Below, piece after piece: positions 11,291 to 59,277 of a stretch of DNA of 64,000 nucleotides. Position 1 is the stretch's first letter. The number at the start of each line of letters is the position of its first letter. This DNA is from Oscillatoriophycideae cyanobacterium NC_groundwater_1537_Pr4_S-0.65um_50_18. GTDB taxonomy: Bacteria; Cyanobacteriota; Cyanobacteriia; Elainellales; Elainellaceae. The DNA is taken from assembly GCA_016208305.1 (NCBI GenBank), contig JACQYI010000006.1, positions 186,001-250,000 of the forward strand, read 5' to 3'. The translations under genes and the position numbers were made by a program. The notes under the pieces are model-generated. The model had not been told where the DNA came from, did no database searches, and saw only the letters and a list, made by a program, of their open reading frames with translations.

Positions 11291-11314
11291 GGGTTTTATT
11301 TAATCCATGATCCT
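11291..11314. repeat. Possible solo end of the dispersed palindromic element
   Basis: The stretch TTATTTAATCCATGATCCTTA closely matches the right terminus of the element at 59082-59240 (TTATTTAATCCACGATCCTAA). No matching left end is found nearby, so this may be a relic or chance. Confidence 0.3.
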
Positions 11315-32620: not shown

Positions 32621-35377
32621 ATGGTTTCCTCACACAATTTAGGATCTTCAAACAATCTAGGATCTTCAAGCAATTTGGGATCTTCCGATCTAGGATCTTC
32701 GCCCGATTTAGAACTCTCGACTCTTCAACTTAAACAAAACCAGGACGCTACATCCAATCATGGCAATGGTAAGGGCAACAATCCCGATTCTTCACGCAGT
32801 ACAGCCGAATCCAGTACAGCCGAATCCAGTACAGCCGAATTCAGTACAGCCGATGCTCAGGGTGCGATCGCTTCCGTAGAGACATCTGGGGTGTATGTGA
32901 CGGTACATGGACACTTCTACCAGCCACCTCGCGAAAATCCCTATCTCAACGCAATTGAGCGACAGCCCAGCGCTGCCCCTTTTCATGACTGGAATGAGCG
33001 AATTCATCAAGAATGCTATCGCCCCAATGCCTTTGCGCGAGTCGTCAGCGAACAGGGCGTCTTACTGAGCATCGTCAATAATTTTGAATACCTGAGCTTC
33101 AACATTGGGGCGACGCTGATGAGCTGGCTAGAGCGCCATGACCTTGAGGTGTACCAGCGAATTTTAGAAGCCGATCGTAAAAGTGCTGAACGGCTGGGTG
33201 GGCATGGCAACGCGATCGCTCAAGTCTATAACCACATCATCATGCCCTTGGCAAACGATCGCGATAAGCTAACCCAAATCCGCTGGGGTAAAGCTGATTT
33301 TCGATCGCGGTTTGGGCGTGATCCCGAAGGCATGTGGCTGGCAGAAACAGCGGTTGACTACCCCACCTTGGCGGCTCTGGTAGCAGAAGGGATCAAATTT
33401 ATTGTTCTGGCTCCTTCCCAAGCGCAGCGCTGCCGACCGCTAACTCAGGCCGCAAATCCTGACGCAGAATGGTTAGAGGTTGCCGATAATCAAATCGACC
33501 CGACCCGACCCTATCGCTGTTATGTCAAAGGTCTAGAAGGCGAGCAGGCGATCGACATCTTTTTCTACGATGGGCCGATCTCGCGAGACATGGGCTTCAA
33601 TGATGTCCTCAACAGCTCTCATCAGCTAGCAGATAGAGTGGGGGCGGCTGTACGACCCGATCATTCCCTAGCGCAGCTAGTGTCTGTGGCGACCGATGGC
33701 GAAACCTTTGGGCACCACCGGAGCGGCACTGAAAAGGCTCTGGCCTATGCCTTTACTGAAGAATTTCCTCGGCGAGGCTGGACAGTCACCAACTTTGCCC
33801 ATTACCTCAGCCTTAATCCACCAACCTGGGAAGTGGAGCTAAAGCCTGTGACTGCGTGGAGCTGCGCTCATGGCGTCGATCGCTGGCAAGACGACTGCGG
33901 CTGTGGAGGCGGGGGCGACTGGCACCAAAAATGGCGAAAGCCGCTACGGGAAAGCCTAGACTGGCTGCGCGATCAGCTTGTCAAAGTCTACGAAGAAAAC
34001 GGCAAGAAGCTGTTCCGTGATCCCTGGAAAACGCGAGATGAATATATTCAGGTGATTCTCGATCGCACACCTAGCACTGTCACCCGCTTTTTATCGCAGC
34101 ACCAAACCCACAGACTCAGCATTGCCGAACGAGCCGATGCCCTGCGGCTGCTCGAAATGCAGCGCCATGCCCATCTGATGTATACGAGCTGCGGCTGGTT
34201 TTTTGATGAACTCTCTCGTCCCGAAGGCACCCAAATCTTGCGCTATGCCGCTAGGGCGATCGAATTGGCAGGCGATGTGTCGGGCATTCAGCTGGAAAAG
34301 GGCTTTATCAAAAGGCTGGCCTTGGCTCCTAGCAACGTGACGGAGTTCTTTCAAAATGGGGCAGAAATCTATCGCCAGCTTGTGCTGCCTTCTCAGATCA
34401 GCCTAGAGCAGGTGGCGGCTCACTATGCCATTTTGTCCCTCTTTGGCACACGCGATCAGCATGTCTACTGCTATGCCGTCCATACTTTGGACTATCAGAT
34501 GCAGCGGCTGGGCGCACTGACGCTGGCCGTAGGGCAAATTCAGCTCACCTCTGAGATGACGCGAGAAACGAGCCAGATGGCTTTTGCAGTGCTGCACCTG
34601 GGCGGCTGGGATTTCCACTGCTGTATTCAGTCTTTTAGCGGACGGCGTGCCTATAGCCAAGCCAAAGAAAGCCTATTCAACGCTTTGGGGCAAGCTAGCG
34701 CTGCCCAAACTATTCTGACGATGAGCCGGATTTTTGGCAGTCAGTCTTTTGGCCTGCAAGATCTGTTTGCCGAAGAGCGGCATCGGATGATGCACCTGCT
34801 CAGTCAGGAAACCCTGACCCGCCTTGATCAGCTCTACACCCAGGTCTACCGAGACAACTACGGGGTTTTAATGGCATTTCACCGAGATGGGCTAGAAGTG
34901 CCGCAGGAGTTGCAGGTAGCAGCAGAGATTGCCATCAGCCATCGCGCCATCGACTTCTTGCAGACGCTGGAACGGGAAACGAGCGACTTTCCGTTTAACG
35001 ATCCGCAGCTTTGCCAAAGCCACCTGGCCGAGCTAGAGGCGATCGCCCATGAAGCAGATCATCTGCATTGCCAGATTAAAATGCCGCAGATCAAGCAAAT
35101 TATGGAGCGGCTGATTTGGCGATCGCTCTGGTCGATTTTGCCTGCTTCTAGCCCACCCGACTCTGAACCAGAATGGCTAGAAGGGCTAGATTGGGTGAAG
35201 CGCTTGATTGAATTGGGCGATCGGCTGCATTTATCACTGTCGCTCGATCGTGCTCAGGAACTATACCTCAGCCATTTGCAGAGCCGCAGCACCTTGCCGT
35301 CTCAGGCACAGTTTCTAGCGCTAGGGGAGAAATTGGCGATCGATGTCAGCCCTTGGCGAACGGCACACGCTGAATAA
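32621..35377 (+). CDS. GH57 family glycoside hydrolase with DUF3536
   Basis: 918 residues. From residue 91 the GH57 catalytic domain begins (VYVTVHGHFYQPPREN). The nucleophile motif GMWLAETAVDY gives Glu242 and the acid motif VATDGETFGHHR gives Asp359. The C-terminal half is the DUF3536 helical region. The first 90 residues are low complexity and encoded by tandem DNA repeats (a GGATCTTC-containing block near 32640-32700 and four 15-base units at 32796-32855), so they are likely disordered. No closer in-frame ATG exists; a GTG near 32891 would begin at the domain. Substrate is probably an alpha-glucan; this GH57 subgroup is poorly characterised. Confidence 0.9.
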   Translation: MVSSHNLGSSNNLGSSSNLGSSDLGSSPDLELSTLQLKQNQDATSNHGNGKGNNPDSSRSTAESSTAESSTAEFSTADAQGAIASVETSGVYVTVHGHFYQPPRENPYLNAIERQPSAAPFHDWNERIHQECYRPNAFARVVSEQGVLLSIVNNFEYLSFNIGATLMSWLERHDLEVYQRILEADRKSAERLGGHGNAIAQVYNHIIMPLANDRDKLTQIRWGKADFRSRFGRDPEGMWLAETAVDYPTLAALVAEGIKFIVLAPSQAQRCRPLTQAANPDAEWLEVADNQIDPTRPYRCYVKGLEGEQAIDIFFYDGPISRDMGFNDVLNSSHQLADRVGAAVRPDHSLAQLVSVATDGETFGHHRSGTEKALAYAFTEEFPRRGWTVTNFAHYLSLNPPTWEVELKPVTAWSCAHGVDRWQDDCGCGGGGDWHQKWRKPLRESLDWLRDQLVKVYEENGKKLFRDPWKTRDEYIQVILDRTPSTVTRFLSQHQTHRLSIAERADALRLLEMQRHAHLMYTSCGWFFDELSRPEGTQILRYAARAIELAGDVSGIQLEKGFIKRLALAPSNVTEFFQNGAEIYRQLVLPSQISLEQVAAHYAILSLFGTRDQHVYCYAVHTLDYQMQRLGALTLAVGQIQLTSEMTRETSQMAFAVLHLGGWDFHCCIQSFSGRRAYSQAKESLFNALGQASAAQTILTMSRIFGSQSFGLQDLFAEERHRMMHLLSQETLTRLDQLYTQVYRDNYGVLMAFHRDGLEVPQELQVAAEIAISHRAIDFLQTLERETSDFPFNDPQLCQSHLAELEAIAHEADHLHCQIKMPQIKQIMERLIWRSLWSILPASSPPDSEPEWLEGLDWVKRLIELGDRLHLSLSLDRAQELYLSHLQSRSTLPSQAQFLALGEKLAIDVSPWRTAHAE
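32796..32855 (+). repeat. Four 15-base tandem repeats inside the GH57 gene
   Basis: Units of CAGTACAGCCGAAT plus one variable base repeat at 32796, 32811, 32826 and 32841, encoding STAES-like pentapeptides. The period keeps the reading frame. Confidence 0.8.
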
Positions 35378-35390
35378 ACCCCAAAGCTCT

Positions 35391-35531
35391 CTAAGGAACG
35401 AGAACGAAATAAAACCGATATACCTGTAGGGGTTTAGCATTCGGCAGATGTGCCCTTGGTCGTAGCAAAGAGGGTTGCCCAAATGCTAAACCCTTACGCT
35501 TGAGTTTCCGGTGTTATTTAATTCACGATCC
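35391..35531. repeat. Dispersed near-palindromic element, copy 1 (MITE-like)
   Basis: 141 bases nearly identical to 59082-59240. The ends form imperfect terminal inverted repeats (left AAATAAAACCG, right CGGTGTTATTT). Internal 12-base arms GGGTTTAGCATT (35430-35441) and AATGCTAAACCC (35482-35493) are perfect. There is no coding capacity. It lies 14 bases past the GH57 stop and may also serve as a terminator. Confidence 0.75.
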
Positions 35532-35592
35532 ATAGCCTTAGATATAAAAGGATTATTCATAAATCCAGAGTTCAGGAATCCAATACAGTAGA

Positions 35593-57093: not shown

Positions 57094-59001
57094 ATGCACT
57101 ACCCAGATGCGATCGAAGCGGATCGGACCCGTATGCCGGACCCCATGAGTGATTTATTCAAAGGATTTGAAGAATTTGTAGAGTTTCTCTCTACGTTGGA
57201 TGAGAAAGTTGAGCGCGGAGAATTTTGGTCAGATTTTCAGGTTAATGCCCGCACCAGCAATATTCCCCGTCAAGGCAGCATTCCGCGCAACAATGTCAGC
57301 CGCCCCCCTGGCTCCCCTAGCGCCACCTCACCCCGCACCCCTGTTGACGCCCGCACCCCTGTTGACGATAGCGTCATCATCACGCCTCCTCCTAATGATC
57401 ATCGCAGCAGTCAAGATTCTACTGCCCGTGCGTCTTCTCGCACCATCGGCGGATTATCTGAAGTTTTGAATGAATTACGAGAGCTGGTTGAGATCCCCCT
57501 GAAGCACCCCCAGTTGCTCTCTAAACTAGGACTCGAACCTCCCCGAGGCGTTTTGCTAGTGGGTGCGCCCGGAACCGGAAAAACCCTGACAGCAAGAACG
57601 CTGGCGGAGGATCTAGGCGTAAACTACATTGCGATCGTTGGCCCTGAAATCATGGGCAAATACTACGGCGAGGCAGAATCGCGTTTGCGCAGTGTCTTTG
57701 AGAAGGCGACCAAGGCTGCCCCCTGCATTGTCTTTATCGATGAAATTGACAGTTTGGCTCCCGATCGCGCTAAGGTTGAGGGCGAAGTGGAGAAGCGCGT
57801 AGTGGCGCAGCTCTTAAGCCTCATGGATGGATTTGCCAAAACGAAAGGGGTGATTGTGTTGGCAGCCACCAACCGTCCTGATCATCTTGATCCGGCTCTC
57901 CGCCGCCCAGGACGGTTCGATCGCGAGGTGCAGTTTCGAGTGCCCGATCGCAATGGCCGACTGGAAATTCTCAACATCCAGACTCGCTTGATGCCGACGG
58001 ACGCCACCGTCAATTTGGGGGCGATCGCTGATCTGGCAGTAGGCATGGTGGGCGCTGATCTCAAAGCCGTCTGCCAAAAAGCCGCCTATACGGCCTTGCG
58101 CCGTCAAGTGCCCGATTTGCAAGCAGTTCACCCTGAAACCATGACGGTGACGCAGGCAGATTTTCTTCAGGCCATCCGGGAAGTTAAGCCTTCAGTATTG
58201 CGATCGCTGGAGATTGAATCACCTAACGTCAGCTGGGAAGATATTGGCGGTCTAGAGGCGGCCAAACAAATCCTGCAAGAGTCGGTAGAAGGGGCTTTGC
58301 TCTATCCTGAGCTATATCAGCAGACGGGCGCAAAGGCACCCAGGGGCATCTTGCTCTGGGGCGCACCGGGAACGGGTAAAACGCTGCTGGCAAAAGCGAT
58401 CGCCTCGCAGGCGCAAGCTAACTTTATTGCGGTCAATGGCCCTGAGCTGCTGAGCAAATGGGTCGGAGCCGCAGAGCAGGCGGTGCGTGAACTCTTTGCT
58501 AAAGCCCGACAGTCTGCACCCTGTGTGGTGTTTATGGATGAAATTGATAGCCTTGCACCTGTGCGGGGCAGTTTTCAAGGTGATTCAGGCGTGAGCGATC
58601 GCGTGGTGGGTCAACTTTTGACGGAGTTGGATGGGCTGCATGGCTGTGCTAACGTGCTGCTAGTGGCGGCTACCAATCGTCCAGATGCTCTAGATCCAGC
58701 TTTGCTGCGGTCGGGGCGCTTAGATTTGCAGCTCAAAATTGATTTGCCGGATGAAACCAGCCGTTTGGCTATTTTGCAGGTGCACAATGGCGATCGTCCC
58801 CTAACACAGGTCGATTTGCCCTATTGGGCAGCGCAAACAGAAGGCTGGAACGGAGCCGATTTGGCTCTTCTTAGCAATCAGGCAGCTTTGCAAGCTGTGC
58901 GGCGCTATCGTGCTCAAGGTCTCACCGATCCCAGCACTATTCGCATCACGACGGATGATTTCACGGCAGCATACCAGGCACTGCTCGAACAAAGACCTTA
59001 G
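57094..59001 (+). CDS. Cdc48/VCP-like AAA+ ATPase with two AAA modules
   Basis: 635 residues. Two AAA domains: the first with GAPGTGKTLTART (about 155), IVFIDEIDSLAP and the arginine-finger region NRPDHLDPALRRPGRFD; the second with GAPGTGKTLLAKA, VVFMDEIDSLAP and NRPDALDPALLRSGRLD. Walker A, Walker B and sensor residues are intact in both. The substrate-binding N domain of Cdc48 is missing; instead there is a 120-residue linker rich in Pro/Thr/Ser with an 18-base DNA duplication (RTPVDARTPVDD). Unfoldase activity is inferred from family. The start is ATG; MSDLFKGFEEFVEFL at 57145 is a later alternative. Confidence 0.93.
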   Translation: MHYPDAIEADRTRMPDPMSDLFKGFEEFVEFLSTLDEKVERGEFWSDFQVNARTSNIPRQGSIPRNNVSRPPGSPSATSPRTPVDARTPVDDSVIITPPPNDHRSSQDSTARASSRTIGGLSEVLNELRELVEIPLKHPQLLSKLGLEPPRGVLLVGAPGTGKTLTARTLAEDLGVNYIAIVGPEIMGKYYGEAESRLRSVFEKATKAAPCIVFIDEIDSLAPDRAKVEGEVEKRVVAQLLSLMDGFAKTKGVIVLAATNRPDHLDPALRRPGRFDREVQFRVPDRNGRLEILNIQTRLMPTDATVNLGAIADLAVGMVGADLKAVCQKAAYTALRRQVPDLQAVHPETMTVTQADFLQAIREVKPSVLRSLEIESPNVSWEDIGGLEAAKQILQESVEGALLYPELYQQTGAKAPRGILLWGAPGTGKTLLAKAIASQAQANFIAVNGPELLSKWVGAAEQAVRELFAKARQSAPCVVFMDEIDSLAPVRGSFQGDSGVSDRVVGQLLTELDGLHGCANVLLVAATNRPDALDPALLRSGRLDLQLKIDLPDETSRLAILQVHNGDRPLTQVDLPYWAAQTEGWNGADLALLSNQAALQAVRRYRAQGLTDPSTIRITTDDFTAAYQALLEQRP

Positions 59002-59016
59002 GGATGTGGATCAATT

Positions 59017-59070
59017 AACCCAAGATTTTTTGAAACCTTGAGCTACTGTTTCAAAAAACCTTGGGTTTTA
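59017..59070. terminator. Terminator after the Cdc48-like gene
   Basis: Arms of 19 bases (59017-59035 and 59049-59067) pair at 18 positions; each contains AACCCAAG or CTTGGGTT and a T/A run. It can act on both strands between convergent genes. Confidence 0.75.
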
Positions 59071-59081
59071 CTTGGGTTTTA

Positions 59082-59240
59082 CTAAGGAACAAGAACGAAA
59101 TGAAACCGATATACCTGTGGGGGTTTAGCATTCGGCAGATGTGCCCTTGGTCATAGCTGCGCCCTTGGTCGTAGCAAAGAGGGTTGCCCGAATGCTAAAC
59201 CCTGACGCTTGAGTTTCCGGTGTTATTTAATCCACGATCC
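59082..59240. repeat. Dispersed near-palindromic element, copy 2 (MITE-like)
   Basis: 159 bases matching copy 1 at 35391-35531; the 18 extra bases are a tandem duplication of CCCTTGGTC plus flank (about 59142-59169). The central arms GGGTTTAGCATTCGG and CCGAATGCTAAACCC pair over 15 bases. The terminal inverted repeats extend to CTAAGGA at the left and TCCTAAG at the right. It sits between convergent genes. Confidence 0.75.
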
Positions 59241-59277
59241 TAAGTTTCAGCCTGCGCCACAAAACCCTATTTGCGAG

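Follow-up and report, generated by a model that had tools for sequence, protein, structure and literature searches.

The window, i.e., the whole 64,000-nucleotide stretch of cyanobacterial DNA analyzed here, contains two near-palindromic repeats, each located past the end of a gene. Copy 1 (137 bp; 35395..35531, plus strand) starts 17 bp past the stop codon of the reading frame at 32621-35377, and copy 2 (155 bp; 59086..59240, plus strand) starts 84 bp past the stop codon of the reading frame at 57094-59001. Both had been noticed, together with their position after gene ends, in a sequence-only reading of the window, and both lie where it placed them, except that the first four bases of its coordinates (CTAA) belong to the flank and target site and not to the element. 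It put the shared sequence at about 140 bases; over their shared positions, the two copies are 94-95% identical. Copy 1, which is 98.5% identical to the family consensus (see below), opens with a left terminal inverted repeat (GGAACGAGAACGAAATAAAACCG; 35395..35417, plus strand) and closes with a right terminal inverted repeat that is an ISAzo13-type end (GGATCGTGAATTAAATAACACCG; 35509..35531, minus strand). Between them lie the left (GTAGGGGTTTAGCATTCGG; 35426..35444) and right (CCAAATGCTAAACCCTTAC; 35479..35497) arms of a central hairpin, both on the plus strand. Copy 1 is preceded by TAA (35392..35394, no strand assigned) and followed by ATA (35532-35534), so that its target-site duplication is not intact. 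Copy 2 is bordered by a TAA target-site duplication on its left (59083..59085) and right (59241..59243) sides, likewise unstranded. Its stem is perfect over 15 bp (arms at 59121..59135 and 59188..59202, plus strand); a perfect central stem of 12 to 15 bases had been noted in the sequence-only reading. An 18-bp tandem duplication (59140..59175, plus strand; units 59140-59157 and 59158-59175) is carried by copy 2 and missing from copy 1, as had been described.

Neither copy contains an open reading frame of at least 80 amino acids, in agreement with the earlier view that they lack coding capacity, and no Rfam RNA family was found in the window. When compared with shuffled sequences, both window copies fold into far more stable structures (z of -5.4 and -5.0). 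Such a strong hairpin, together with the location of both window copies and several others just past gene ends, could be expected of a transcription terminator or 3'-end stem that was copied along with genes and is not itself mobile. However, no T-run follows the stem and no terminator-like site is present in either window copy. An intrinsic terminator, which would need a T-run behind a G+C-rich stem, was accordingly rejected, and the sequence lends no support to the additional suggestion of the sequence-only reading that the copies may end transcripts.

The host genome (G000) is a draft assembly of 6.94 Mb in 85 contigs, and a genome-wide search of it revealed approximately 16 dispersed copies of the family, far above chance. 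The family element is 137 bp long (GGAACGAG…CACGATCC), and the mean pairwise identity is 94% among 14 copies. When the copies are aligned with their flanks, they share sharp boundaries (GGAAC...GATCC), beyond which their sequences are unrelated. The shared ends are GGAACGAGAACGAAATAAAACCG and, on the opposite strand, GGATCGTGGATTAAATAACACCG; the terminal inverted repeats that had been reported are thus present but imperfect, with 17 of 23 positions matching and 6 of 23 differing between left and right. Two copies show rearrangements: the core is inverted relative to the ends in L016, and a further insert of roughly 100 bp is nested within L015. Since the copies differ by several percent, their sequences give no sign of very recent movement.

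Of the copies, 14 have ends that can be read; the 3-bp flanks are identical in 8 of these (TTA in five, TAA in two and CCA in one) and do not match in the other six. The excess of matching flanks in the host genome corresponds to a permutation p of 0.037, which on its own is modest evidence, given how rarely the target is anything but TTA or TAA. At least four further cyanobacterial assemblies contain related elements. In Scytolyngbya sp. HA4215-MV1 (G050), four related elements were found, and the 3-bp duplications are perfect in all four (TTT, TTA, TAA, TTA). The same two end types are also found in elements of Oscillatoriales Centralia_MAG_596, Lyngbya sp. HA4199-MV5 and Stenomitos frigidus ULC18. 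A duplicated terminator leaves the terminal repeats, the fixed boundaries and the target duplications unexplained; moreover, the flanks of the copies are unrelated and similar ends occur on transposase elements (see below). A non-mobile duplicated terminator is already largely refuted by the duplicated targets, together with the ends of ISAzo13 type, and we regard this reading as extremely improbable.

As far as the lists of open reading frames show, the copies are intergenic. In 5 of the 16, the neighboring reading frame ends exactly at the element, and its stop codon is either kept or rebuilt: in L002 and L004 the stop is the TAA of the target duplication, whereas in L007, L010 and L011 it is a TAG formed across the junction (TTA|GG). 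Judging from the sequence, the gene at L002 would encode a seryl-tRNA synthetase and that at L004 an ABC-transporter ATPase. In element-free genomes of the same genus, the counterparts of the L002, L004, L007 and L010 proteins have their C-terminus at almost the same residue, and therefore the coding sequence has not been truncated at these four loci. The gene-side empty sites in these genomes place the entry of the element at gene stop codons. A clean two-sided empty site was not found in same-genus genomes, where alignment is confined to the gene side and the sequence beyond the element has diverged. For the copies in the window, no empty site could be read, since the most complete genome of the genus has the two flanks on separate contigs. 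In the window, about 4% of the TTA/TAA sites between genes overlap a stop codon, and against this background the 5 of 16 observed are in excess (binomial 0.0003, with a single-window background and calculated after the pattern had been seen).

A transposase element with a matching end resides in the same genome. At the right end of the element (GGATCGTGGATTAAATAACACCGGA), 24 of 25 bases are identical to the end of a PF07592 transposase element at C84:78926; the C84 end is preceded by TAA and lies upstream of an ISAzo13-family (PF07592) transposase. Compared with its relatives, the C84 element lacks an internal segment, and it is cut off by the end of its contig. Additionally, four complete 1.3-kb insertion sequences of the ISAzo13-type group, with TAA or TTA duplications, were found in the host genome (C44:25250-26548, or L101 1473-2771; 1299 bp), in G012, in G026 and on the Calothrix sp. 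NIES-4101 plasmid AP018275. The host-genome element at C44 carries GGATCGTGGATTAAATAA at either end, with TAA duplicated at its target site, and both it and the C84 element score above the Pfam cut-off for the PF07592 transposase. The right-end matches between the family and the ISAzo13-type elements extend over 18 to 25 bases. The left end (GGAACGAG...) was found on no transposase element, and no full-length parent carrying both ends was found among the transposase elements, the other end of C84 being lost at the contig end. Thus, of the transposase with matching terminal repeats that was sought, the right end is accounted for within the same genome and the left is unmatched.

The left terminal repeat, unlike any transposase-element end found, and the presence in the genome of a second miniature family with similar ends would fit mobilization by a different DDE transposase that shares the GGATC...AAATAA end motif by chance. 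Nevertheless, the 18- to 25-base right-end matches, the same 3-bp TTA/TAA duplication and the co-residence point to ISAzo13, and we consider a different enzyme very unlikely.

In the C44 element, orfA and orfB appear to be full length. Both here and in the G012 element, the two frames overlap at DTKK in the -1 phase, the overlap reading A AAA AAA G or C AAA AAA G. Through a -1 frameshift, the two frames of C44 could thus be read as one whole transposase. The same overlap site is found in the C84, G026 and Calothrix elements; orfB is interrupted in G026, and C84 carries its deletion. The loci at which ISAzo13-type transposases show the -1 phase overlap at A AAA AAA G (DTKK) include, besides C44 (L101), L107, L110 and L181, which suggests that programmed frameshifting may be used in this group.

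The hairpin core (GTAGGGGYTTAGCATTCGG ... CCGAATGCTAARCCCYTAC) is conserved as a stem. In a cross-species alignment, 94% of cells are paired and compensatory changes are observed, with 6 of 19 pairs altered on both sides. The covariation score of the core was reached by none of 500 shuffles, and sliding the partner arm destroys the pairing. A literature search with the core sequence found nothing relevant. The same core is found between TAGAGGATGTTTGAAAAGT-type ends at four loci of two other genomes (G004 and G028), and in a second family of the host genome ISAzo13-type ends enclose another hairpin (AATAGTTTTTGGAAGTGCCGC...), so the parts of these elements look modular.

The members of this second miniature family include L086, L088, L091, L094 and L096, with ends GGATCATGGATTAAATAAAACCC / GGATCGCAAATTAATYAACC, and L086 shows a clear TTA duplication. 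In the window, a solo end of the family (GGATCATGGATTAAATAAAACCC, minus strand) lies at 11291-11313, and a stem-loop resembling a decayed member occupies 59002-59080 and adjoins copy 2 on its left side; copy 2 seems to have inserted at the edge of this stem-loop. As for the TAGAGGATGTTTGAAAAGT ends, more than 100 are present across the host genome (e.g., L059, L152 and L168), many as inverted pairs approximately 150-200 bp apart, and they constitute another abundant miniature family. No transposase was found between TAGAGGATGTTTGAAAAGT ends in the loci examined, where the ends alone were scanned.

The core also bears on whether a RAYT tyrosine transposase moves the element as a REP/REPIN-like palindrome. 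Its GTAGGGG...CCCCTAC sequence begins with GTAG, the border of GTAG-tagged REPs, which are reported from cyanobacteria (PMC3733652), and forms an inverted pair. The association of the core with other ends in other genomes would also fit this explanation, but each full core match in the host genome sits between ISAzo13-type ends, and the half-cores have no obvious hairpin of their own. Furthermore, target duplications would, to our knowledge, not be expected from RAYT movement, and this origin appears very improbable.

We therefore consider it very likely that the element is a miniature inverted-repeat transposable element (MITE), i.e., a non-autonomous element in which two ISAzo13-type terminal inverted repeats surround a hairpin core and which would be moved by an ISAzo13-family transposase. 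The sequence-only reading had recognized the form of a MITE, and the follow-up, which covered most of the checks that it called for, upholds this view through the copy count, the 3-bp duplications, the homologous elements in other cyanobacteria and the transposase element with a matching end. Since the ends match those of the ISAzo13 family, the MITE probably spreads by borrowing the enzyme of that family. Specifically, an ISAzo13-family DDE transposase supplied in trans by a full-length insertion sequence whose ends are similar would recognize the repeats of the MITE and move it, presumably by a cut-and-paste route, into TTA/TAA sites, with duplication of the 3 bp of the target. The structure of the hairpin core is probably what is being preserved: the stem may help transposition, or it may sit harmlessly at the 3' ends of transcripts.

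A further hypothesis, which we put forward tentatively and hold to be somewhat short of probable, is that the core is a module passed between cyanobacterial miniature elements whose ends are unrelated, and is itself selected as a structure, with one ISAzo13-type end set carrying at least two different hairpin cores. The ends would happen to keep or rebuild a stop codon upon insertion into one (TAA by duplication, TAG by TTA|GG), thus making stop codons a harmless landing place. Modular cores and landing at stop codons provide simple, testable ideas on how elements may spread without harming genes.

These results connect the ends of the ISAzo13 family with a palindromic repeat of a cyanobacterium and provide a candidate helper element; in the open-access literature searched, as far as its text was accessible, no description of a MITE with ISAzo13-type ends was found. 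Like other bacterial MITEs, the element is short and non-coding, has terminal inverted repeats and a target duplication, and is present in many dispersed intergenic copies. Nezha derives from an IS630-type element and has a TA target, and by this origin and target it would be a different family from the MITE described here. Nezha is likewise a cyanobacterial MITE (PMC10969869, PMC3733652). Similar to the GTAG-tagged REPs, the core of our MITE has GTAG/CTAC at its borders and folds into a stem; its hairpin, however, is much longer, has a 35-base interior and is enclosed by DDE-type ends with target duplications. With the ISAzo13-family insertion sequences (PF07592, DDE_Tnp_ISAZ013), the MITE shares the terminal repeat GGATCRTGGATTAAATAA at one end and the 3-bp TTA/TAA duplication, whereas it differs from them in having no transposase gene, in a left end that departs from its right end at 6 of 23 bases, and in an interior made of a hairpin that is absent from those examined.
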